Shown here: one piece after another, positions 1,382 through 18,714 of the stretch
Numbering within the stretch: the stretch's first letter is position 1
Layout: each line of letters starts with the position of its first letter
IMG/VR virus record: IMGVR_UViG_3300023435_000580
Coordinates: 1 to 23,087 of that record
Origin: a virus
Direction: 5' to 3' (one strand)
Length of the DNA stretch: 23,087 bases
Translations under genes and position numbers: made by a program
The notes under the pieces: model-generated
Database searches by the model: none
The model's input: the letters and a program-made list of their open reading frames with translations, nothing else
Told to the model about the DNA's origin: nothing

Positions 1382-2521
1382 CTATAGTGCCTGTGGTGGA
1401 CAGCAACCAGCGGTTATCTGTGCTGAATCTCGTATATCCCCATTTTTCGCAGCAGCGGCACAATCGTCAATAGCTAATTGTTGTGTCCCGTGAACAGAGG
1501 TGATAATTGAGTATGAGTTAGGTGTATCAGAATTACAACTAGCGCAGTATGCCCAAACACCACCGCTACAGGCATAGTCATAATATGTTCCATCGCATTT
1601 AGTGTACCATAAGCAACAGTAGTAATTTCCATAATAGTTGTCTGATACGCAGTTATGTGCCCACGCTCTATCCCTAGTATCACAACCTCCATAGGAGTAT
1701 GCATTTATTGATATATCCAAAGAATCACATACATCACCCTCTACGGTTAAAGTAATCGTGGGGTTATTCGCACATTCTGCATTTGTACTCGGTGCGGTGT
1801 AATCGACCGATGTTCCCGTTGCCGCTGACAATTCGCCACCACCTGATGCTATTGCCCAATTATATGTGCATCCATCTGCGGCTCCGGTTGCGGTAAGAGT
1901 TTGCACTTCATCGACTGACATGCCCTGTGTGGTATAACCTATGGAGATTCCAGTACAACCACAACAATCATCACATTCTCTCAGTTGCTTATTACCGTGC
2001 GAACCCTGTACGGGATTGACTAATTTAGTTACAATACCAAACCTACCCCCCGGAGAACTGCCACCAGAGTATGTCGCCAACATCAAAACATCATAAGAGC
2101 ATATCCCATTTACATTACACCCTTCAGGAACTGTGACGCATAGTTGATTACCAGAAAGAGTAAATTCTATGCATGGGTCACAAAAAGCGGTATCTATCCC
2201 AACTATTGGGTGAGTTGGATATAGAGTCGTACACTGTGTAGTTCCCTCGCAATAGCAAAGCTCCCCTCCACAATAGAATACTATTTCCGAAGGGGTCTTT
2301 ACGGGTATCCCACCAACAGGCATCCCCGGATAATCAATACCTTCAGGATGATTAGTAGGATGATAGTGTTGCATAGCAGAGTAGTCATCACCCCTATACG
2401 GTTTCTCAAATTCAGAATGTTTCTCTACCTGCAACTCCCACGCAGCTTTATTGGTGACTCGTTTCATCATCTCCGGGTAAGACTTTGATATGTAGGGTTT
2501 TCTCCCATACTCGCGATTCAC
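1382..2521 (-). CDS. Cysteine-rich protein with an Ig/PKD-like beta domain
   Basis: 379 aa with 27 cysteines, many clustered (CDDCCGC near 183-189, YYCC near 300-303, CASC near 326-329, CC at 373-374). Residues about 191-275 look like a bacterial Ig/PKD-type beta-sandwich (NWAI core, alternating Thr/Val strands). The N-terminal 80 residues are cysteine-free and polar. There is no signal peptide. Translation starts at GTG 2521, preceded by GAGGAG at six bases. Its place among tail genes suggests a virion surface or fibre-like component, and the cysteines may form disulfides or bind metal. Function is inferred only; the gene itself is clear. Confidence 0.8.
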   Translation of the reverse strand: MNREYGRKPYISKSYPEMMKRVTNKAAWELQVEKHSEFEKPYRGDDYSAMQHYHPTNHPEGIDYPGMPVGGIPVKTPSEIVFYCGGELCYCEGTTQCTTLYPTHPIVGIDTAFCDPCIEFTLSGNQLCVTVPEGCNVNGICSYDVLMLATYSGGSSPGGRFGIVTKLVNPVQGSHGNKQLRECDDCCGCTGISIGYTTQGMSVDEVQTLTATGAADGCTYNWAIASGGGELSAATGTSVDYTAPSTNAECANNPTITLTVEGDVCDSLDISINAYSYGGCDTRDRAWAHNCVSDNYYGNYYCCLWYTKCDGTYYDYACSGGVWAYCASCNSDTPNSYSIITSVHGTQQLAIDDCAAAAKNGDIRDSAQITAGCCPPQAL

Positions 2522-2524
2522 TAT

Positions 2525-2552
2525 TGACTCCTCACTATAAAAATGTTACTAT
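2525..2552 (+). promoter_or_regulatory. Possible rightward promoter for the HNH-like gene
   Basis: TTGACT at 2525-2530 and TACTAT at 2547-2552 are separated by 16 bases, a fair sigma70 match lying about 100 bases upstream of the only rightward gene in this half of the window. It overlaps the start region of the leftward gene. Weak evidence. Confidence 0.3.
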
Positions 2553-2564
2553 TGTTTGCGGATA

Positions 2565-2601
2565 GGGTAGCACCCGAAAAGCTGAGCCACTGGTACTTGG
2601 C
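2565..2601 (+). other. Two short hairpins in the leader of the HNH-like gene
   Basis: GGGT/ACCC (2565-2575) and GCCA/TGGC (2586-2601) can each fold in the 128-base spacer between the leftward GTG gene and the rightward endonuclease-like gene. No T-run follows, so they are not classic terminators. I see no group I or II intron core. Confidence 0.3.
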
Positions 2602-2649
2602 CTTCCGCACTTCAAAACTTACCAGAAATCTTAACCAGGAGATTATATC

Positions 2650-3261
2650 ATGTCTAACAAATTTAAAGATATCACAGGTCAAACTTTTAATCGTCTTTTC
2701 GTAATCTGCAAAACAACCCCTAACAAATGGAATAAGGCACGATGGAAATGTAAGTGCTCTTGTGGAAATTTTATTGATGTAGATGGTGAAAGTCTTAAAA
2801 GCAAAAACACTCAAAGCTGTGGTTGCCTTAATAGAGAACGTAGTCACGAGGCTAACCACAAGCATGGATTGTGTGGCACTCCAGAATACACATCGTGGTG
2901 TCAAATGATAAGTCGTTGTCATTGCCCGACTGCTAAATACTTTTTCAATTATGGAGGACGAGGTATTGAAGTTTTCCCAGAATGGAGAGAAGATTTCATG
3001 TCCTTTTACAATCACATCGGAGCAAGACCAACTGTTAAACATACCATAGAGCGAATTGATAACAATGCTGGTTACTTTCCCGGCAATGTTCGATGGGCAA
3101 CAAGACGAGAACAAGCTAACAATACCAGACGCAATCAGTTTATAACTGCCAATGGAGAAACGCATACAATAGCACAGTGGGCTAGAATTACTGGCATCTG
3201 CGCCGGTACGATTTATAGTCGTATCAGACTTGGATGGAACCCGGTAAAAGCTGTTATTTAA
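2650..3261 (+). CDS. Homing-endonuclease-like protein (HNH-type family), opposite strand
   Basis: 203 aa on the plus strand, against all neighbours. An AGGAG ends eight bases before the ATG. Residues 32-59 form a cysteine cluster (C34, C36, C38, then C57 and C59). Residues 98-160 carry the YGGRGI...EW...ERIDN..GY.PGNVRWAT...EQ..N pattern typical of a common phage HNH-type endonuclease family. The last 40 residues (ITANGETHTIAQWA...) look like a small DNA-binding helical repeat found at the end of such proteins. The likely role is a free-standing homing or mobile endonuclease inserted in the gap between the nozzle-like gene (stop at 3273) and the cysteine-rich gene (start 2521). Family assignment is from motif memory; activity is unproven. 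Confidence 0.88.
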   Translation: MSNKFKDITGQTFNRLFVICKTTPNKWNKARWKCKCSCGNFIDVDGESLKSKNTQSCGCLNRERSHEANHKHGLCGTPEYTSWCQMISRCHCPTAKYFFNYGGRGIEVFPEWREDFMSFYNHIGARPTVKHTIERIDNNAGYFPGNVRWATRREQANNTRRNQFITANGETHTIAQWARITGICAGTIYSRIRLGWNPVKAVI

Positions 3262-3272
3262 TATGTACTCTT

Positions 3273-5930
3273 TCATTGCCCTTCAATTTCCTGTATTTCG
3301 TGTCCACGATCTAATAAATACAAAGTCTGACTTACTGTATTGTTTTGATACTTCATTGTTATATGTTGGCCTGTCAGATTGAAATTCTCTCTATGTCGTC
3401 TGATCGTCTGGTTTGTAACTTCCGCTGTCATTGATAACGTCTTTACAGTTTGAGCGATTGAGTTTATAGAAGGAGTCAAAGTTAAGTCTCCTGCGGTCTG
3501 TACCTTCGTTCTAACGACCCCTTCTCCGATGAAGATGTTCATGCCATGCCCACTTAGTTCTTCGATTGTATAGGCATCTATGGCCGCTGAAACGTCATTT
3601 GTAGTTGTGTTTAAAAGATATGTGAACCCATCCGCTACACCACCGCCTACCTGTAAAATAGGATTATTCCCTGAAGCGGCTTCTACGTTTGCCATACATG
3701 CTAATTGCGGTGTTCTTGAATCGAAACTCCACGTACCATCTTCTAAATCGTAAACCGGGAAAAGATTACAGGTTGCCGAATAAATTTCATAACCTTCACC
3801 AGACGCCATTATATCGGTATCAATCGATAATGTCGTGGCACTATCAATAGCAGTAATTAATGCACTCGTAGAATCCGTAGTATTATAAACTGTATCCCCG
3901 ACTGCTATCGTATGGGCAATGGGATGTCCAGTTACACTCTTTCTTGTTGAAAAAGCTCCTGCGGTATCAACTAATTTATCGCCGGTTGTGCTGGTCGCCG
4001 TTGAGGTCTGAACCGATATCCCTACTACAATACCTAAGTTTATTGTGTTTTCTGAAGGATCGTCTGACATCCAGTGATCGTTATCGTACCCCCTTCGGAT
4101 ACATTCGCTCTCCTGTGGATTGAAATAGTTCTTAATGTCTCCCGTTATATCGGTAACGTATCTTCCGTCACTCATAAAGACACCCTTATGACTTACCCAG
4201 AAGGCTATCTTGGTAATGACCTGATCTGTTGGGGTTCCTACTCTACTACCATCAATCACAACAGCACACTTAGAATTGAGTATTCCTATTTCAGTAGATA
4301 AGACTAATTTACCGAATGTGGGAGGGGAATACCCCTCGAATAGCGTGAGGCATCCCCCCTCCTTTCCTTTTTCTTCTTGCCATGCCATCAATTCATTATT
4401 GAATGGTTTAGCACAAATCACTTTATTGTCCCGTCCATCTCCGGCTTCAAGTACTCCCGTTCCATCGTATCCATTTAAAACCTGTGGTCTGTGTAAAGCC
4501 GAAGCGAATAAGAATCTATCCCCGAACCCGTAGACCATCCTGTTTTTCCATGCCGAACTTACAACTCCCTTAGTCCCGTGATCGGCTATCTTAAAGTACG
4601 GTTGGTACGAAAGACTGATTATCACGTCATCATTCAAAGTCTTATCGACTTCAAAGTAATACCAGTAGGCATAGACCCCTGAGTTAAAGGCTGTCTTGAA
4701 AGCTGCCTTACGTGGGAATGTCACCCATCCGGGCTTACTCATACCTGAAGAACCATCTGATACAGTTCCAACGGTAGAGAATGCCGCACCTGTCCAGTAG
4801 TACATTGCATCGATAGTCGTAGTCCCGGTCGTATTTGGCTTGGCCCCAGGGTCAACATAAATTGCATTAATTGGATCTGCGGTGGCGAAATAGACCTTCC
4901 CTGCATCGGTCATGGAATCTATCTCAATCGCCGTTGAACCGAACTTCTTATACACAGCCGTAGCATCGGTACAGTGTTGAGTCTCGACAACAGGGATTTC
5001 CACTCCATCCCATACGTTTTCAATTCCCTGCCAGTCTGTCTCGTAGGTTACGGAGGTGACTTCGGTTTCAGCATCCAACGCCCCACTTGCTAAAGAGAGT
5101 TGATGCCAGTACCCGACTTGACCAAACATGAAGAATGGAATGGAACTGTCGGGAAGCGTGAATTTCATTGTTCCACCGGTAGTCGCTAGAGTTTTGGTGC
5201 TTGATCCAGCATCTTTTGTGGTGTCGGCAAAAGCCGCACATGGTTCCCATGTATCGTCACTCTTTCGATATTTCATCTGAGCTACTGAAGCAGTATCGTT
5301 TGCCTTAGAAATTGTCCATGTAAAGGTGTGTACGGGAACAGGAGTCATTATAAAGATACAATCATAAGCCGCTAATGTCGAAAGTGAATCCAATACCGCC
5401 ACCGTGGTAGTGAGTCCATCGGAGACTTCATCTGAATAGTCCTCACCAAGAATAGGAACTGTGGGAATCGCCGTGGCACCCTTATAGACAATCAATCTTT
5501 TTACGTAAGAAGCGGTTCCAGGATAGATTTGATGCTGATCTACTCCATTTGAGAAGAAAAGAGTCTCATCCATAACGCTCCATGATGCCGGTACTGAGCT
5601 GGCTGAACCAGTAAAGACCTTTGTTCCGAAGGCTCCCGTAGTCACCGTAGGAGGATCGGCAGTAGCTTCCCAAACGTCATCATCTGACCGTTGCGTGTAC
5701 ATATGTCGCTCTGTCTTCTTACCTTTGGAAAACTGATACGCTGAAAGGATTTTAGCCGCGGTAGCGGTTGTGTGGAGTTGAGACATACCCCCACGTTGTT
5801 CTAAGCCGGGGTGCCTCTGACGCATATTCTGAATCTTTGAGAATCCACCAACCGGAAGTAACGCAGGTTCGTTGCGGGTTATATTCCCGCCCCTGAAGGA
5901 ATTTGTTTCTATTTTAGTTAGCTTTTTCAT
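3273..5930 (-). CDS. Tail-nozzle / beta-propeller-like structural protein
   Basis: 885 aa. The N-terminus (FRGGNITRNEPALLPVGG...N...R.G) is typical of large podoviral tail proteins that begin by threading into the adaptor. Repeating beta-rich units follow, including blade-like pieces such as WVSHKGVFMSDGRYV and YDLEDGTWSFDSR. A Thr/Asp-rich insert (about residues 640-710) interrupts the last third. The order adaptor then this protein, with an ATGA stop/start overlap (5927-5930), supports a P22 gp10-type nozzle or hub role. There is little ribosome-binding site of its own, so translation probably depends on the upstream gene. Structural role likely; the exact P22 equivalence is inferred. Confidence 0.72.
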   Translation of the reverse strand: MKKLTKIETNSFRGGNITRNEPALLPVGGFSKIQNMRQRHPGLEQRGGMSQLHTTATAAKILSAYQFSKGKKTERHMYTQRSDDDVWEATADPPTVTTGAFGTKVFTGSASSVPASWSVMDETLFFSNGVDQHQIYPGTASYVKRLIVYKGATAIPTVPILGEDYSDEVSDGLTTTVAVLDSLSTLAAYDCIFIMTPVPVHTFTWTISKANDTASVAQMKYRKSDDTWEPCAAFADTTKDAGSSTKTLATTGGTMKFTLPDSSIPFFMFGQVGYWHQLSLASGALDAETEVTSVTYETDWQGIENVWDGVEIPVVETQHCTDATAVYKKFGSTAIEIDSMTDAGKVYFATADPINAIYVDPGAKPNTTGTTTIDAMYYWTGAAFSTVGTVSDGSSGMSKPGWVTFPRKAAFKTAFNSGVYAYWYYFEVDKTLNDDVIISLSYQPYFKIADHGTKGVVSSAWKNRMVYGFGDRFLFASALHRPQVLNGYDGTGVLEAGDGRDNKVICAKPFNNELMAWQEEKGKEGGCLTLFEGYSPPTFGKLVLSTEIGILNSKCAVVIDGSRVGTPTDQVITKIAFWVSHKGVFMSDGRYVTDITGDIKNYFNPQESECIRRGYDNDHWMSDDPSENTINLGIVVGISVQTSTATSTTGDKLVDTAGAFSTRKSVTGHPIAHTIAVGDTVYNTTDSTSALITAIDSATTLSIDTDIMASGEGYEIYSATCNLFPVYDLEDGTWSFDSRTPQLACMANVEAASGNNPILQVGGGVADGFTYLLNTTTNDVSAAIDAYTIEELSGHGMNIFIGEGVVRTKVQTAGDLTLTPSINSIAQTVKTLSMTAEVTNQTIRRHRENFNLTGQHITMKYQNNTVSQTLYLLDRGHEIQEIEGQ

Positions 5931-7339: not shown

Positions 7340-8932
7340 TTAATGACTGATAAAACTTATTGTTTGTATAACCTCTTCCGGTTCTGGAAGATAATCATAC
7401 AGGTTATTACATTCACTGATATGCCAAGCTACAAGGTCTGTGATTAAGTATCCCTTGATATGGTCGTCATACAGTGTCTTCTTACATAGTGAAACGGTCT
7501 TATAGTCTTTGTGCCCATTCCTGTAGGGTAAAACGTAGTCTGGATGTTTACAGGTAGGAATCAACACAATGTGGTTATCAAATGCGCCGGCAAGGTGTAC
7601 TGGAGCAGAATCGTTTGAAACCAAGACTTTAGCTTTATCTAAAAGAGCAATCAAACCACCCAAAGAGAGCTTGTCCCTGAAGTCATATCCATTCTCAGGG
7701 CATTCAACGGGAGCGTAAGAGTGTTTGGGTACACCGTCACCATCTATCAAGAGCGTTTTCCCTATCATCCCGACTGTATGTGTCTTGCTTATTCCGTCAA
7801 CTACCTTCTGCCACCATTCAATCGGGAATGTTTTACTAGGCCATCCAACCCCTGGGTGAATCAGTACCAAGTCTTTCAGGTTCTTACAGATGTCTTTAGA
7901 TTCCTTCAAATCCTTCTTGGAGTATGTGAGTTTCGGTGTCTTGAACTCATCGGGTAGTATCCTTCCAATACAAGCTGTGGAGATGTAGTCTACCGGGTGA
8001 CACAATGGATGAATGAGCTTCATTTGAAGATGGTCTACCTGGCTTGGATGAGCATTCATTTCGTGCATGGCATCAAATTCACCTTCGGGATACTTACGAT
8101 CTGCCTTAATGTCCAAATGGTCAAAGAGTCTTGGAACTGAGGTCAATGCGAAAATGTTGGCATCGGGATAGAGTTCTTCTTTCATGTATCTCAAAACCGG
8201 TTCCGAACAGACTTGATCTCCAATCCCACCGCCTACGAACATGAAGATGTTTCTTTTGTAGTCGTAGTCTTTACTCTTCCACATTTCAATATCTCGATCG
8301 ATATCTTCAAAGATGTCTCTTTCCCATCCTGCGTAATGAACAAAGTAAGAATCCAGTCTGGTGAATCCGGTTAACCTAGCCATGATGCTCATTGAGTTCA
8401 ATTTGTAGTCCAGATTGTGAACTTCTGTTTCATTCTCAAAGAGTCTGAAGTTTAAGAAGGTCTGTTCACCAAAAGCGTTTCTGAGTTGTTTTATTTCACC
8501 GGGTGGCTTGAAGATGTGGCGATGTTTCTTTGATACCACCATAACACCTGTATTGTAGTAGTCTCTGCCATTCCACTTGGGTAAGCGTACACCATAGACC
8601 TGCATGGCTTCGTGAAGACACATTGATCGTGGCGTGAACTGCCCTTCGTTGAATACCCCAAACTTGTCTTCAGAAACTATTTCAAACAAGTCCGGCGCAT
8701 CATCCCTTATCAGAATATCCGCATCAATAAAGACTACCCTGTCATATTTTTTCTTCAAGAACTCGTAGATACTGAACTTCAACCAATGTGGACTGGGTAC
8801 GAAACTCGCATCTTCCAATACGATTAAATCTGCACCTACCTTATCAGCGTAATTTTCAAAGAACGGTCTGGTTCTTAACCAGATTTTATTATACTTTTCA
8901 CCAGCAACAATGGTGATTATCGCTTTATTCAA
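7340..8932 (-). CDS. Two-domain glycosyltransferase (GT8-like plus GT9-like)
   Basis: 530 aa. Residues 1-210 look like a GT8/glycogenin-type sugar transferase: the DAD metal-binding motif at 70-72 within VVFIDADIL, YNTGV at 126-130, FGEQTFLN near 154-161 and HYAG at 199-202. Residues about 228-530 look like a GT9 (heptosyltransferase-type) domain: GGGIGD at 234-239, HPGVGWPSKTFP at 359-370 and the nucleotide-sugar loop SNDSAPVHLAG at 439-449. Translation appears to start at TTG 8932; no ATG lies near the conserved N-terminus, and AAAGG sits eight bases upstream. It overlaps the previous gene by eight bases, inside the virion operon, so it may glycosylate a virion protein or modify host surface sugar. 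Substrate unknown. Confidence 0.87.
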   Translation of the reverse strand: MNKAIITIVAGEKYNKIWLRTRPFFENYADKVGADLIVLEDASFVPSPHWLKFSIYEFLKKKYDRVVFIDADILIRDDAPDLFEIVSEDKFGVFNEGQFTPRSMCLHEAMQVYGVRLPKWNGRDYYNTGVMVVSKKHRHIFKPPGEIKQLRNAFGEQTFLNFRLFENETEVHNLDYKLNSMSIMARLTGFTRLDSYFVHYAGWERDIFEDIDRDIEMWKSKDYDYKRNIFMFVGGGIGDQVCSEPVLRYMKEELYPDANIFALTSVPRLFDHLDIKADRKYPEGEFDAMHEMNAHPSQVDHLQMKLIHPLCHPVDYISTACIGRILPDEFKTPKLTYSKKDLKESKDICKNLKDLVLIHPGVGWPSKTFPIEWWQKVVDGISKTHTVGMIGKTLLIDGDGVPKHSYAPVECPENGYDFRDKLSLGGLIALLDKAKVLVSNDSAPVHLAGAFDNHIVLIPTCKHPDYVLPYRNGHKDYKTVSLCKKTLYDDHIKGYLITDLVAWHISECNNLYDYLPEPEEVIQTISFISH

Positions 8933-13711: not shown

Positions 13712-15708
13712 TTTCCACTTTCCGGGGATTCTTTCCCCTCCATTTGAGCCATCTGCTCTAGCTCTGCCTGTTTCGCCTTCATAAGAATCATCCTATGAGC
13801 ATCGGTATGCTGCATGGCGATTTCCTTCAGGTCGTCTGACAGGTTATCGAACTCGTTTGAAAGAAGGAATCTCTTATGAACTTCAAAGTGTACTGCGTGT
13901 TCATCGAAGTCAAACAATGGGTCATCGTTAATATCTTTCATCTCGCCGGTTTCCGGGTTGACTTCCATGAGGTAGATGTTTTCTACATTACTCGTAGCGA
14001 TATCGGTATTCTCCCGTTCTGCTCTTTCACGGTCTACGTCAAGTTTCTCTGCAAACCCACTAAGACCTAACTTCTTGAGATATTCCCTGCGAATTTCAGG
14101 ATCTTCAATCTCAAAGAACTTATACTGAATCAAGTCCATAAGGATTTGTTTCTTCCCGGCTTGCGTTGTGGACAATCCAGACTCGATTTCCAGTTTAACA
14201 TCTGTGTTGTTACGTAAATCCGCACCCTTGAAGTTCATTATGCGCTTACGACTGTTTCTGCCCATGACACTTATCTTGCGATTTTCTGTGTAAACGTCCC
14301 GAGATATTATCAGACGCTTCTTGTAAACAGCGCTCATCTGAGTATTGTAGCGGTCTATATCAGGTACATGACCCTTCTCGGCAGTCTCACGCAGGATATC
14401 TACCATGATACCAGAAGATTTAGATGATGGCGCCTTGCCTCTCATTATATTCTTGGGATCACCAGACAGGTCTTGAATCTGTATCTTTGAATTATTGCGT
14501 TCTTCCAAGATTTGCTGTGGTAGTGCAATGCCCTGTTCAAACTTCGGTTCTTTGCCGCCTGAAAGTAAAGCATCATATTCAAGTGCCAGAAAACCTTGCC
14601 CGCCTTCACTCAGTCTCTTTATCGTAAGGCCCGTTGGAGTGATGACTCTTGGCCTACCTAATCCCTTACGATTCATTATAAGAGCCTGATCTATTTCGTT
14701 GATTTTGTTCTGAGGACTGATAAGATCATTCACCCCAGGGTCTGACCAGAATTTGCCTGGAATTTTGTTATAATGGAAGTCAGTCAGAGTATAGTACCAT
14801 TTGCCGTCTTTGACAGGGATAGGCATTCGATCTAAATCTATCAACTTTTCATTGCCAGCAACTACGAGGTATCTGCCCTTTGGATACTTAATAGAGGGTT
14901 TAACTTCCAGTTCCTTGAATAGTACCAATTCCTGTTCGTTGAGTTCGATAGAATTGTTTTCAAGCCCATGCCCTTTCCAGAGTGACACATTGCTTACGAG
15001 CTTCAGTAATCTCTTCTGGTAATCAATCGCTCTCTCGCTATCACCGCCCTTTATCTTTACATTGAAGGTATCTTCTACCCATTCCCGGGGAACCAATGAC
15101 CGTATGCCGATCCAGCGTTTGTCCCTGAAGTTCTCGCCCAGACTGTCCATGATGACGTTGAAGTTTATCACATTCTTGGCGACGACTTCCCCGGTTTTAA
15201 TGACCGTACCCTTTTTATCGATGAACCAAGGCCCACCATCCATTTCGGGGATTGTTCTCATGAATGCCGTACCACCAAGGCACATCCAATCGATGAGTTT
15301 TTCCTTTTCACCCTGAATCTCATTGTCATTGACCGTATCCAGCCATATAAGGAACTGTTCTCCGAGCCTTGCCGCTTCCCGATCTTCTCTTTCATCTGTG
15401 TTGGGGGTAAGGGTTGGTTTAAGATTCTGCCCTAAGAACATTGCTCTGACGGCTTTAACGAAGCTCCTGATCTCATTGTCAACGGGCGTTGGGACATACT
15501 GTGGCATTTGTCTCCGGCGGAATGTCCTGGACGACCTCATGTATTCAATCCACTGTTCGCCCATATAGTACAGTATGTTCCGGTAGGTGACTCGATCTTG
15601 CATTGTCCGTGCGTAATCCACGTCAGTATTGAACAATGCGTTGACAAAATTAACTAAATCCTTACCTTTTAAATCTTCTCCTTTCTTGAAAAACTTATAG
15701 GTATCCAT
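13708..15708 (-). CDS. Portal protein (P22-like)
   Basis: 666 aa, the length of podoviral portals. Features: an N-terminal helical region with RNILYYMGEQWIEY, then DNEIRSFVKAVRAMF, a wing with GGTAFMRTIPE, RSLVPREWVED, a stem region (NKINEIDQALIMNRKGLGRPRVI), a crown-side SGDPKNIMRGKAPSS and a charged C-terminus. It forms the dodecameric ring at one vertex through which DNA passes, and docks the terminase and the adaptor. AAGGAG precedes the ATG. It follows the terminase and the small membrane protein on the same strand, as usual. The stop overlaps the 57-aa gene. Confidence 0.9.
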   Translation of the reverse strand: MDTYKFFKKGEDLKGKDLVNFVNALFNTDVDYARTMQDRVTYRNILYYMGEQWIEYMRSSRTFRRRQMPQYVPTPVDNEIRSFVKAVRAMFLGQNLKPTLTPNTDEREDREAARLGEQFLIWLDTVNDNEIQGEKEKLIDWMCLGGTAFMRTIPEMDGGPWFIDKKGTVIKTGEVVAKNVINFNVIMDSLGENFRDKRWIGIRSLVPREWVEDTFNVKIKGGDSERAIDYQKRLLKLVSNVSLWKGHGLENNSIELNEQELVLFKELEVKPSIKYPKGRYLVVAGNEKLIDLDRMPIPVKDGKWYYTLTDFHYNKIPGKFWSDPGVNDLISPQNKINEIDQALIMNRKGLGRPRVITPTGLTIKRLSEGGQGFLALEYDALLSGGKEPKFEQGIALPQQILEERNNSKIQIQDLSGDPKNIMRGKAPSSKSSGIMVDILRETAEKGHVPDIDRYNTQMSAVYKKRLIISRDVYTENRKISVMGRNSRKRIMNFKGADLRNNTDVKLEIESGLSTTQAGKKQILMDLIQYKFFEIEDPEIRREYLKKLGLSGFAEKLDVDRERAERENTDIATSNVENIYLMEVNPETGEMKDINDDPLFDFDEHAVHFEVHKRFLLSNEFDNLSDDLKEIAMQHTDAHRMILMKAKQAELEQMAQMEGKESPESGK

Positions 15709-15719
15709 TATATTACTCC

Positions 15720-15935
15720 TTATACCGGTATCCCAAATTCTACATCAGGCGCAGGTTCTGTCGGTTTTGCGGCTTCTTCTTTCCGTACTTCTGCCATGAC
15801 GTACTCTTCGTAACTCTTCGCCATAATACGGTTCAGAAGCTCAGATTCACGCCTTACAGCCTCTCTTTTGTCTAATTGGTGTATCACCCCTTGATAAATA
15901 ATGATACCTATTAAAACGGCTATTGCTACTTCCAT
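15720..15935 (-). CDS. Small single-pass membrane protein
   Basis: 71 aa. Residues 1-18 are a hydrophobic segment (MEVAIAVLIGIIIYQGVI), followed by a charged helix and a Pro/Glu-rich tail ending DVEFGIPV. GGAG lies before the ATG. It sits between terminase and portal, where some podoviruses carry a small membrane protein; a lysis-related (holin or spanin-like) or packaging-linked role is possible, with no motif to decide. Confidence 0.65.
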   Translation of the reverse strand: MEVAIAVLIGIIIYQGVIHQLDKREAVRRESELLNRIMAKSYEEYVMAEVRKEEAAKPTEPAPDVEFGIPV

Positions 15936-15947
15936 GATTTCTCCTTT

Positions 15948-18422
15948 CTACCAATGGGCATATTCGCCCTCGTTAATTTCATTGTATTCATCCCATATTT
16001 CCTTCAATTCCAAATGGGCTACCTCTGAAACGTCTTTCGGTGCCTTCTTTGGCTCAACTCTCTTTTCAATGGTTCCAATAGGTCTGGACATGGCGATATG
16101 AGCGGCTTCATCAAAACAATTATGTACTGTTATACCACCATTAACACAAAATGCATGTGTGTAAGCAGCATCTAAACAGAAAACATCTTGTTCACCCACA
16201 TAAATCACTTGCTTTACTTTTGCGTGTTTCCCATGTTGACCTTGAAGTACAATGTGGTGAACAAGTTTTTCCGAATCCAACAAATTTGGTTCCACACCAT
16301 TTACATATTCCTTCGGATCTACTATCAAGTTGCCATTTCCTTTGCTGACACCTTCGTGAACAATAGATTTGAAATGGCAATCCCTTAAAAACCTTTTCAC
16401 AAAAGACACATGTTTTATCTGTTCGCTGACGTATTTTGTCTTTACAGTGTTTTTCGTACTGTTGTTTGTGCCATTCCAATCCTTCTTGACTTCCATGCCA
16501 TTTGTTAGCCCCAACATGCAATGCATCAACCCATTGTTGTGTATAATTAAGTTTCCCATGTTGCGACTTATGCTCTGAAGAGTCTTTACATTCAAGATTT
16601 TCAATTTGGTTATTATATCGGTTAAAGTCTTTATGATGGATATGATAACCCTTTTTAATTTTCCCATTATGATATTCCCATACTGCCCGATGTAACCTTT
16701 TTCTTGTCCTAGCAAAGTATTTTTCTGATAATATGTACCTTTTACCATTAAACTCTTGTGTGGTACTGTCGATATTTTTGACTCGCATGTTAATACCTCC
16801 ATAATATCTTTATTATTTTGGATACTAACATGGCACGCTTCATCAGTCAAGTCTTTTACTTCTTTCCATCTACCATCACTGGTTAATATTTTGTGATCTT
16901 CAGTACAAGTAATAGATTTATCGTCATCGAATAAAACACGAAACACTTCTACTTTTTCTCTAGTTTTCCTACAATTATAAAAATCTGTCCAATATCCCCC
17001 ACAGGTTAAAACCTTACCACTTTTACCTACAAGATTCTGTAATGTAATTTCCCCATCTTTTGTATCGACTATTGTACTACCTACCAAACAATGGTCTTCA
17101 CCTTTTGTATTAACGTCTTCAATGTTATTCTCATCGACTACGAGATTCGGCAAAGTCCTGATAAACTGTTTGCAATTAGGGTATACCTTCATCATCGGCA
17201 TATCTTGATCGTGTCTCAGCCTCTCGTGCATCTGTTTAATCTTGGCGATTCGATTCTTATCATCTGCCGGTCTTAAAGTAAGCCCATTATCCCTGAAAAC
17301 TTCCATTGTCGATGGACCCTGCCCGCCACCCAAGTAGTTAGGACGTTTCTGGAAACAATCACTCCCGGCCAGTCTCGAATTTACCCTTCCCCAGATCCCC
17401 AGACCTTTCTCTTTGGCAATAATCCCTTTGGCAATGTCTGTATCGGTCATTCTCAATCCCTGATTCGGGCTTCCATTCCACCCATACCATTCGTCAAACC
17501 GATAAACCCTACCGTCATTGTCTATCCACCACCACCCTATTGAAAACGGAGCACCAAAACCCCAATCATAGGTCATTACGATAGGCGCATTATCAGGAAC
17601 AGGCAAATCACCATCAACAACGTGCATCGGTGGCGACCATTCCTGAAACGCCTGACCTACAAAGACGTTCCAATCACCATCCCTAAAGGCCTTCCTGATC
17701 GCTTCGGGAAGAGTATTCAGCATGCCCCAATAGGTTGCGTCGATGTACTTGTTATCATCAGCCTTTGACGGAATATAGCAGAATTGTTCCCTGTAATCTA
17801 TAGGTTGTTCAAATGTCGGCGCCCATTCATCACCATATATCCGATCCATCCAAAGAGCTTTTACCCACCCATGACCTACAGACCCAGGGTTCGTACCGCC
17901 TACAAACGGGCATTCTATGTCTTTCAGTCCTGGCCAACGAAGTCTCTGCCTCAAAAATGTGAACACATCGTAATCGTTTTTGGTCAGTTCGTCAACGAGA
18001 ATAGCCGCAAATTCACTTGAAGCGTACTTTGCAGGGTCATCGAGGTTCCTGAAGCAGATAATCCCATTCCCATATTCAGGCGAAAGTATAAAACATCTCC
18101 CATAGTCTTTATGATCGGTATAGTTCTTGCCCAACCAATCAGGAAACTCTCTTGAAATCTTCTGTAACTGACGATCCTTTAAAGCCGGATAGTTCTCACA
18201 AGCCAACATCACATTGACCCATGTAAGTCCATACTTGGCGAAGATCATCATTAAAAAACGTACTGCAAACCATCTCAGGCCATAGGACTTGCCCCCGCCC
18301 AACGCCCCACCATATAGAAGAAACTTATACAGTCCAGTATCAAACTGCTTGCAAAGCTCTATCTGCCGTGGTTGGAACTTGGCTATCTGATATTCAAAAT
18401 TGAGATTCTGTCGCTTTTTCAT
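15948..18422 (-). CDS. terL: Terminase large subunit interrupted by an intein
   Basis: 824 aa from ATG 18422; the frame is open to a TTG at 18434, but the ATG with GGAG upstream fits better. Extein total is 500 aa after removal of the 324-aa intein. Numbering from this ATG: Walker A GGALGGGKS at 38-46; Walker B ILVDE ending at D144-E145; RNase H-like nuclease Asp residues D286 (MTYDWG), D355 (AGSD) and, after the intein, D771 (CFDEAAH). The protein cuts and pumps phage DNA into the head through the portal. The intein splits GEDH from CFDEAAH exactly at the third nuclease motif, so active enzyme needs splicing. It overlaps the previous gene by 29 bases. Confidence 0.93.
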   Translation of the reverse strand: MKKRQNLNFEYQIAKFQPRQIELCKQFDTGLYKFLLYGGALGGGKSYGLRWFAVRFLMMIFAKYGLTWVNVMLACENYPALKDRQLQKISREFPDWLGKNYTDHKDYGRCFILSPEYGNGIICFRNLDDPAKYASSEFAAILVDELTKNDYDVFTFLRQRLRWPGLKDIECPFVGGTNPGSVGHGWVKALWMDRIYGDEWAPTFEQPIDYREQFCYIPSKADDNKYIDATYWGMLNTLPEAIRKAFRDGDWNVFVGQAFQEWSPPMHVVDGDLPVPDNAPIVMTYDWGFGAPFSIGWWWIDNDGRVYRFDEWYGWNGSPNQGLRMTDTDIAKGIIAKEKGLGIWGRVNSRLAGSDCFQKRPNYLGGGQGPSTMEVFRDNGLTLRPADDKNRIAKIKQMHERLRHDQDMPMMKVYPNCKQFIRTLPNLVVDENNIEDVNTKGEDHCLVGSTIVDTKDGEITLQNLVGKSGKVLTCGGYWTDFYNCRKTREKVEVFRVLFDDDKSITCTEDHKILTSDGRWKEVKDLTDEACHVSIQNNKDIMEVLTCESKISTVPHKSLMVKGTYYQKNTLLGQEKGYIGQYGNIIMGKLKRVIISIIKTLTDIITKLKILNVKTLQSISRNMGNLIIHNNGLMHCMLGLTNGMEVKKDWNGTNNSTKNTVKTKYVSEQIKHVSFVKRFLRDCHFKSIVHEGVSKGNGNLIVDPKEYVNGVEPNLLDSEKLVHHIVLQGQHGKHAKVKQVIYVGEQDVFCLDAAYTHAFCVNGGITVHNCFDEAAHIAMSRPIGTIEKRVEPKKAPKDVSEVAHLELKEIWDEYNEINEGEYAHW
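16192..16788 (-). CDS. HNH homing endonuclease nested out of frame in the intein
   Basis: 198 aa in a different frame of the same strand as terL, lying wholly inside the intein. HNH_3-type signature: HRAVWE at 33-38, GYHIHHKDFNRYNNQIENLE at 47-66, closing H73. Two zinc-finger-like pairs follow: C127/C130 with C143/C147, and C162/C165 with C176/C180. Own start ATG 16788 with GGAGGT six bases upstream; a stop in its frame at 16810-16812 excludes read-in from upstream. The stop (TGA) falls at the beginning of the coding part for intein block F. It probably cuts intein-free terL alleles and so spreads the element. A functional HNH is inferred from motifs. Confidence 0.92.
   Translation of the reverse strand: MRVKNIDSTTQEFNGKRYILSEKYFARTRKRLHRAVWEYHNGKIKKGYHIHHKDFNRYNNQIENLECKDSSEHKSQHGKLNYTQQWVDALHVGANKWHGSQEGLEWHKQQYEKHCKDKIRQRTDKTCVFCEKVFKGLPFQIYCSRRCQQRKWQLDSRSEGICKWCGTKFVGFGKTCSPHCTSRSTWETRKSKASDLCG
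16795..16800 (-). promoter_or_regulatory. Internal Shine-Dalgarno site for the nested endonuclease
   Basis: GGAGGT lies six bases before ATG 16788, inside the intein coding sequence (it encodes part of IMEVLT in the terminase frame). It is among the best ribosome-binding sites in the window and decides that the endonuclease is made as a separate protein. Confidence 0.85.
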
Positions 18423-18714
18423 CCGGCTCCGCAAAGGCGTTTTCTACAATCACCTTAAATTCGTCCATATTCGATACTTTAATCTCCGTGGGGAACTCTA
18501 TACCATCCACGGTGATCTTGTCCTTTGGAGACTGGTTAATGAAACCACAATGACCATTCTCGTCGTCATCCCAAGCCCAAGCACCACAGCGCCCGCCAAG
18601 ACATCCACCAATCACCTCACATCCAAACGCCCCCCGGTTGTGATTCAGCAAACGATGCAATTCTGTCACCTGATACTTCGGACACCATACTCTATGCGAT
18701 TCTGCTGCTCTCAT
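18394..18714 (-). CDS. Small cysteine-motif protein upstream of terminase
   Basis: 106 aa. Residues 32-58 carry CEVIGGCLGGRCGAWAWDDD then GHCGF, a CxxxxxCxxxxCxAW...GxCG pattern seen in many small phage proteins near packaging or early genes, probably metal binding. The C-terminal half is acidic with a short beta/helix portion (ITVDGIEFPTEIKV). AGGAG precedes the ATG, which overlaps the previous stop (ATGA). The end overlaps the terminase start by 29 bases, indicating coupling. Function unknown. Confidence 0.7.
   Translation of the reverse strand: MRAAESHRVWCPKYQVTELHRLLNHNRGAFGCEVIGGCLGGRCGAWAWDDDENGHCGFINQSPKDKITVDGIEFPTEIKVSNMDEFKVIVENAFAEPDEKATESQF

Follow-up and report, generated by a model that had tools for sequence, protein, structure and literature searches.

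We analysed a 23,087-nucleotide stretch of viral DNA (IMG/VR record IMGVR_UViG_3300023435_000580; hereafter the window) and conclude that its terminase large subunit gene (terL) probably harbors a mobile intein in the TerL nuclease motif, the homing endonuclease of which is encoded by a separate overlapping gene rather than by an in-frame domain. At the level of sequence, we documented the anatomy of this arrangement, both open frames, the conservation of the HNH protein, the avoidance of stops in the terL frame, the recurrence of the overlap in two frames and a relative with an empty insertion site.

A complete intein in terL encloses an out-of-frame HNH gene

Counted from the ATG at 18422, terL encodes 824 aa, 500 of which are predicted to remain after splicing (Table 1). 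The initial annotation had reported a full set of intein splicing motifs in the terL frame. All of them are present, from C1 through the TEDH of block B to a terminal VHN directly followed by Cys+1. TIGR01445 (intein_Nterm, NCBIfam) matched the intein above its cut-off (E 1e-5), and Pfam Intein_splicing matched at E 1.7e-8, one bit short of its cut-off (34.8 vs 35.8 bits). Residues C1, T63, H66 and N324 were invariant in 23 aligned members. Furthermore, a Foldseek search with the AlphaFold model of the intein retrieved the Hint fold of the Ssp DnaB mini-intein (E 1.5e-6) along with many other inteins. The model is confident at residues 1-100 and 288-324; between them, pLDDT mostly falls to 26-54, apart from one helical stretch that scores better.

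Table 1. Features of the terL locus in the window.
Feature	Coordinates	Strand	Remarks
terL ORF, 828 aa including the intein	15948..18434	(-)	PHROG 979 terminase large subunit, E 7.6e-15
TerL N-extein, C-terminal end ...KGEDH	17091..18434	(-)	
Intein, 324 aa: C1, block B TEDH, block F, penultimate His, Asn324	16119..17090	(-)	
N-terminal splicing half, residues 1-100	16791..17090	(-)	AlphaFold pLDDT mostly 89-97; alignable to 130-aa mini-inteins
Intein-frame linker opposite HNH, residues 101-287	16230..16790	(-)	Open; mostly disordered by prediction
C-terminal splicing half, residues 288-324, end VHN	16119..16229	(-)	pLDDT 92-97
TerL C-extein, start CFDEAAH	15951..16118	(-)	The D is presumably the Asp of nuclease motif III
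HNH endonuclease gene, 198 aa, host frame = HNH frame + 1	16192..16788	(-)	Pfam HNH_3, PHROG 15471
Shine-Dalgarno GGAGGT of the HNH gene, 6 bases 5' of ATG 16788	16795..16800	(-)	Duplex energy -10.6
In-frame TAA, eight codons 5' of the HNH ATG	16810..16812	(-)	

The same annotation had placed a 198-aa HNH protein in a second frame of the intein, with its own GGAGGT/ATG start and an upstream in-frame stop, and we located each of these elements. The upstream TAA rules out translation that runs in from further upstream within the HNH frame. The protein matched Pfam HNH_3 (E 5.6e-15, 55 bits, cut-off 24.8) and, over residues 1-192, the HNH endonuclease family PHROG 15471 (E 1.6e-28). It carries the HNH motif at residues 31-73 and two CxxC zinc-finger-like pairs. 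HNH_3 was found in 28 of 28 HNH members, and H51, H52, N60 and H73 were invariant in the 28 aligned sequences. Its AlphaFold model has a mean pLDDT of 93. The closest solved structure was that of I-HmuI (1u3e; Z 7.5, rmsd 2.6), with 74 aligned residues confined to the N-terminal part, and the next structure reached a Z of 4.0. A PDB sequence search with the HNH protein returned only chance-level matches to an unrelated protein. Since the 3' codons of the HNH gene overlap the folded C-terminal splicing half, the DNA there truly encodes two folded proteins.

Phage HNH homing enzymes often reside in group I introns, and this frequent association would also allow the gene to sit in such an intron or another RNA element of terL, TerL being made after RNA splicing. 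An Rfam scan of 15700-17500 revealed no match at E<=1 and no group I intron fold. Furthermore, the terL frame is free of stops throughout, which an intron would not need, and intein motifs occur on both flanks. We therefore regard an RNA element as highly improbable.

Elsewhere in the window, a second, free-standing HNH gene of another family (2650-3261 (+); PHROG 374, E 3e-64) lies between two genes on the strand opposite to its neighbours. On the antisense strand, a 251-aa ORF (2521-3276) overlaps it and is probably no gene. A 530-aa ORF at 7340-8932 (-) appears by eye to join two glycosyltransferase domains and gave only a weak match to a PHROG of unknown function.

The nested arrangement recurs in many phages

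A PHROG scan of the terL-frame protein matched the terminase family phrog_30251 straight through the stretch opposite HNH, as expected only if other phages share the overlap. Searches with HNH in phage records, IMG/VR and bacterial genomes recovered 168 loci, in which frames were assigned using small HMMs of both splicing halves and of HNH. Clustering at 90% nucleotide identity yielded 105 HNH-first clusters, which are related and not fully independent, and which include many metagenomic fragments. The HNH gene was nested with the host frame at +1 in 63 of these clusters (window included) and at +2 in 6/105, lay between the halves of split inteins in 19/105, was free-standing in 15/105 and incomplete in 2/105. 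None of the 105 contained an in-frame HNH fusion. All the intein loci of this sample occupy one TerL site in motif III, immediately ahead of the Asp in the C-terminal nuclease motif (x-x-D-H/C-x-D-x-x-R-Y, the slash marking the insertion point).

Because these loci had been found through HNH, we conducted a second, intein-first search in which the query comprised only the last intein residues and the following extein. It yielded 63 clusters, in partial overlap with the first set, of which 57 were nested (54 at +1, 3 at +2). Three others were mini-inteins of 130-133 aa without endonuclease at the same TerL site (L244, L260 and L275), one (L287) carried a different in-frame domain, LAGLIDADG-like by eye, and two were not classifiable. 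Again, no in-frame HNH was found in these 63 clusters. Judging from both samples, the nested out-of-frame HNH is the rule for this intein family rather than a curiosity.

The initial annotation had suggested searching related phage terL genes for the same nested frame, and the search returned 69 nested clusters with both frames intact. It had also named a frameshift error at the borders as a possible source of the picture. Two compensating indels introduced by sequencing or assembly would indeed make an ordinary in-frame HNH intein look nested. However, the same borders recur in dozens of independent assemblies and in isolate genomes, no in-frame form was found, and every HNH gene carries its own stop codon and, usually, a separate start. 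Because the arrangement is shared by 69 clusters that include isolates such as Tetrasphaera phage TJE1, such an error is excluded in practice, and we consider this origin scarcely conceivable.

Public records overlook the arrangement: those of TJE1 (L019), Highwayman (L021) and Rhodobacteraceae phage LS06-2018-MD07 (L022) annotate the terminase alone at this place, the overlapping HNH gene being absent. In another TerL (L173, 4234-5142), a different intein lies seven residues upstream of the common insertion point and likewise bears an out-of-frame HNH, in +2 phase. In addition, four loci (L007, L004, L066 and L153) have TerL ORFs of about 1,170-1,414 aa, far longer than the others, which suggests a further large insertion; a second intein end (HIVTHN/T) is visible in L004, and L007 shows a break at the P-loop region.

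The terL frame is kept open opposite HNH

The terL frame had been said to stay free of stops where stops would be expected, which we assessed by shuffling synonymous codons within each HNH gene while keeping the protein and its codon usage. The claim held in the window, where 0 host-frame stops were found against 4.0 expected (P 0.005) and the third frame had 24. As the window alone provides a P of just 0.005, tests at the level of the class were needed. In these tests, which are not blind since the nested class is defined partly by its continuous frame, +1 nested loci contained 0 host-frame stops against 2.14 expected per locus (about 135 in total), and +2 nested loci contained 0 against 8.2 per locus (about 49 in total), with 9.7 stops in their +1 frame. 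Free-standing relatives contained 7.5 stops against 7.8 expected, and split ones 5.6 against 5.5. A chance origin would require dozens of improbable loci, and openness tracks whichever frame joins the splicing halves. Furthermore, among 17 independent close pairs, 242 synonymous changes in HNH were expected, in the absence of constraint, to create 6.4 new host-frame stops, and none was seen. Chance openness is excluded for the nested class as a whole on these sequence comparisons.

We then asked which of the two frames is conserved as protein. Of 566 substitutions in 17 independent pairs, 312 fell at HNH codon position 3, 144 at position 1 and 110 at position 2. In one pair, the HNH proteins were 96% identical whereas the intein-frame translation of the same DNA was 75% identical. 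Both observations indicate that selection acts on HNH at the protein level, whereas in the overlapping intein frame it mainly maintains openness. The AlphaFold models agree with this lopsided constraint, HNH being confident and the intein middle mostly below 55, and the three mini-inteins lack exactly that middle. The dual coding initially proposed thus stands insofar as both frames are kept, while the constraint, which that annotation had recommended measuring in both frames, is unequal: the HNH frame is constrained, and the intein frame opposite it is just kept free of stops.

These results also bear on whether the overlap is accidental, with one frame an unused relic and the other open by chance. 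The modest P of the window taken alone would leave room for such an accident. Against it stand the 0 stops in 69 clusters of either phase when free-standing relatives show normal stop numbers, the protein-level selection on HNH and the invariant intein residues. An accidental overlap is accordingly very improbable.

Predicted translation of the HNH gene

For the HNH gene of the window, the best reading of the sequence is internal initiation at GGAGGT/ATG. In the supported seven-member clade to which the window belongs, Shine-Dalgarno energies at the HNH start ranged from -5.4 to -11.6, even though the residues encoded there in the host frame are variable. Over the +1 nested loci as a whole, an energy of -6 or better was found in 35% vs 19% of controls, a modest enrichment, and 5/6 of the +2 nested loci had no clear Shine-Dalgarno. 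The proposal that HNH levels are set by its own ribosome-binding site therefore fits the window and its clade but does not extend to the class. We discarded a general ribosome-binding-site signal, which is strong in that clade and weak overall. Shine-Dalgarno signals are rarely used in Bacteroidota. One nested locus, L166, derives from a Bacteroidales MAG, and some phages of the nested class may infect Bacteroidota.

Programmed -1 frameshifting from the terL frame could instead produce a fusion of TerL-N and the first intein half to HNH, with no internal ATG start. In the common phase, HNH does occupy the -1 frame of terL, and slippery-type heptamers were present in the relevant stretch of 14 of 63 nested loci vs 6.7 expected. 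However, the window lacks such a heptamer yet has a canonical Shine-Dalgarno and ATG. Among the excess heptamers, several are runs of the GGGAAAN type, apparently a by-product of the NGK motif conserved in HNH, and the +2 phase would require the opposite shift. Frameshifting is unlikely in our view.

Probable mobility, decay and evolution of the element

The TerL of L172, 59% identical to that of the window, has an empty site (EDH/VYDEACH) and no intein. Some related intein-HNH pairs occur in very different TerLs, as in L142 and L145. In L007, a member of the clade of the window, the core of HNH is deleted while both frames and the intein are kept. The initial annotation had counted a broken HNH beside a kept intein as evidence against its reading. 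Such cases do occur, in L007 and the three mini-inteins, and the interpretation stands nonetheless, since a homing cycle with decay predicts both. Together, presence, absence, decay and transfer form the pattern expected of a homing element.

HNH proteins beside terminases aid DNA packaging in some phages, and free-standing HNH relatives often adjoin terL or terS; the HNH protein could thus be a packaging accessory, perhaps in some phages, rather than a homing enzyme. However, the protein belongs to HNH_3 and its closest structural match, over the N-terminal part, is the homing enzyme I-HmuI. It is also missing from the intein-less TerL relative and from the mini-inteins, which indicates that TerL does not need it. 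A packaging role is, on this evidence, quite unlikely.

We favor a homing intein that would operate as follows. Ribosomes translating terL would read through the entire intein, and the precursor would splice itself to free active TerL. The stretch opposite HNH would be an open, mostly unfolded linker that connects the N- and C-terminal parts of the splicing fold. A second set of ribosomes would initiate inside the intein at GGAGGT/ATG to make the 198-aa HNH_3 endonuclease. This enzyme would cleave terL copies that lack the intein, at the insertion site or close to it, and repair would copy the intein and HNH together. Selection preserves the protein sequence of HNH and bars stops from the terL frame.

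In a quick, unrooted HNH tree, supported branches mark at least two origins of the +2 phase, and the split label changes seven times. Several split relatives (e.g. L147, L060 and L072) form three clean genes: TerL-N with the first intein half, HNH, and a C-half fragment leading into TerL-C. This fragment of about 36 aa begins with MKVK or similar and has its own ribosome-binding site. Such natural split TerL inteins, with HNH between the halves and a ~36-aa C-half bearing its own start, were seen in L147, L060, L072, L064, L008 and L043.

Discussion

Textbook accounts present intein endonucleases either as domains fused in frame or as free-standing genes next to split inteins. The fractured genes that Dassa reportedly described in NAR in 2009 are split inteins whose halves flank a free-standing endonuclease. 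They share with the present loci a separate endonuclease gene between splicing halves, and 19 clusters of relatives (e.g. L147 and L060) have just that form. In the window and 68 other clusters, by contrast, the host frame continues through the endonuclease, so that the intein forms a single polypeptide. Inteins of the canonical type, with an in-frame LAGLIDADG or HNH endonuclease, have the same splicing fold with an endonuclease in the middle. Unlike them, the window and all nested relatives encode HNH in another frame, without fusion. Mycobacteriophage TerL inteins were found in the N-terminal ATPase domain (Kelley 2016, PMC5050341); that of the window, also in TerL, is in the C-terminal nuclease motif.

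The nearest precedent is the ShiLan element, an out-of-frame HNH in an insertion of a phage DNA methylase (Arsenault, Gosselin, Gogarten 2025, PMC11855218). As in the window, its HNH of about 195 aa has zinc fingers and lies in another frame, the host frame is open, and the element is thought to home. Its authors reported no intein splicing motifs and no Shine-Dalgarno, thought that the insert stays in the methylase, and dealt with a small number of phages (PMC11855218). Here, a full intein surrounds HNH, the host is TerL, and the arrangement occurs in many phages and in two phases. The statement that no described class has this form agrees with our literature search as regards an HNH out of frame in a contiguous, complete intein, but an out-of-frame HNH in an in-frame insertion had already been published (PMC11855218). 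A preprint by Gosselin, Arsenault and Gogarten (2025, bioRxiv 10.1101/2025.01.02.630785) is cited there for overlapping actinobacteriophage reading frames. This preprint, on the 'Non-Canonical Architecture' of actinobacteriophage inteins, may describe the same kind of intein, which could lower the novelty of our finding. Our literature search, a comparison to which that preprint was external, revealed no description of a contiguous intein with an out-of-frame endonuclease.

These observations reveal a third design, present in many phages, in which one stretch of DNA carries the intein in one frame and the endonuclease gene in another. Splicing and endonuclease expression would accordingly be separate products of the same DNA. 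A broader proposition, to which we would give an even chance, is that the inteins of phage TerLs constitute a large class, so far undescribed, whose normal state is an out-of-frame endonuclease translated separately. The overlap would then have arisen more than once and in both alternative frames, and the nested, split and mini forms would represent successive stages of a single evolutionary cycle. If so, this cycle would be a route to natural split inteins. The split TerL inteins reported here are possible new tools for protein engineering. Since a single insertion site offers relatives of the nested, split, mini and free types, comparison and experiment can address how split inteins originate and what overlapping genes cost.
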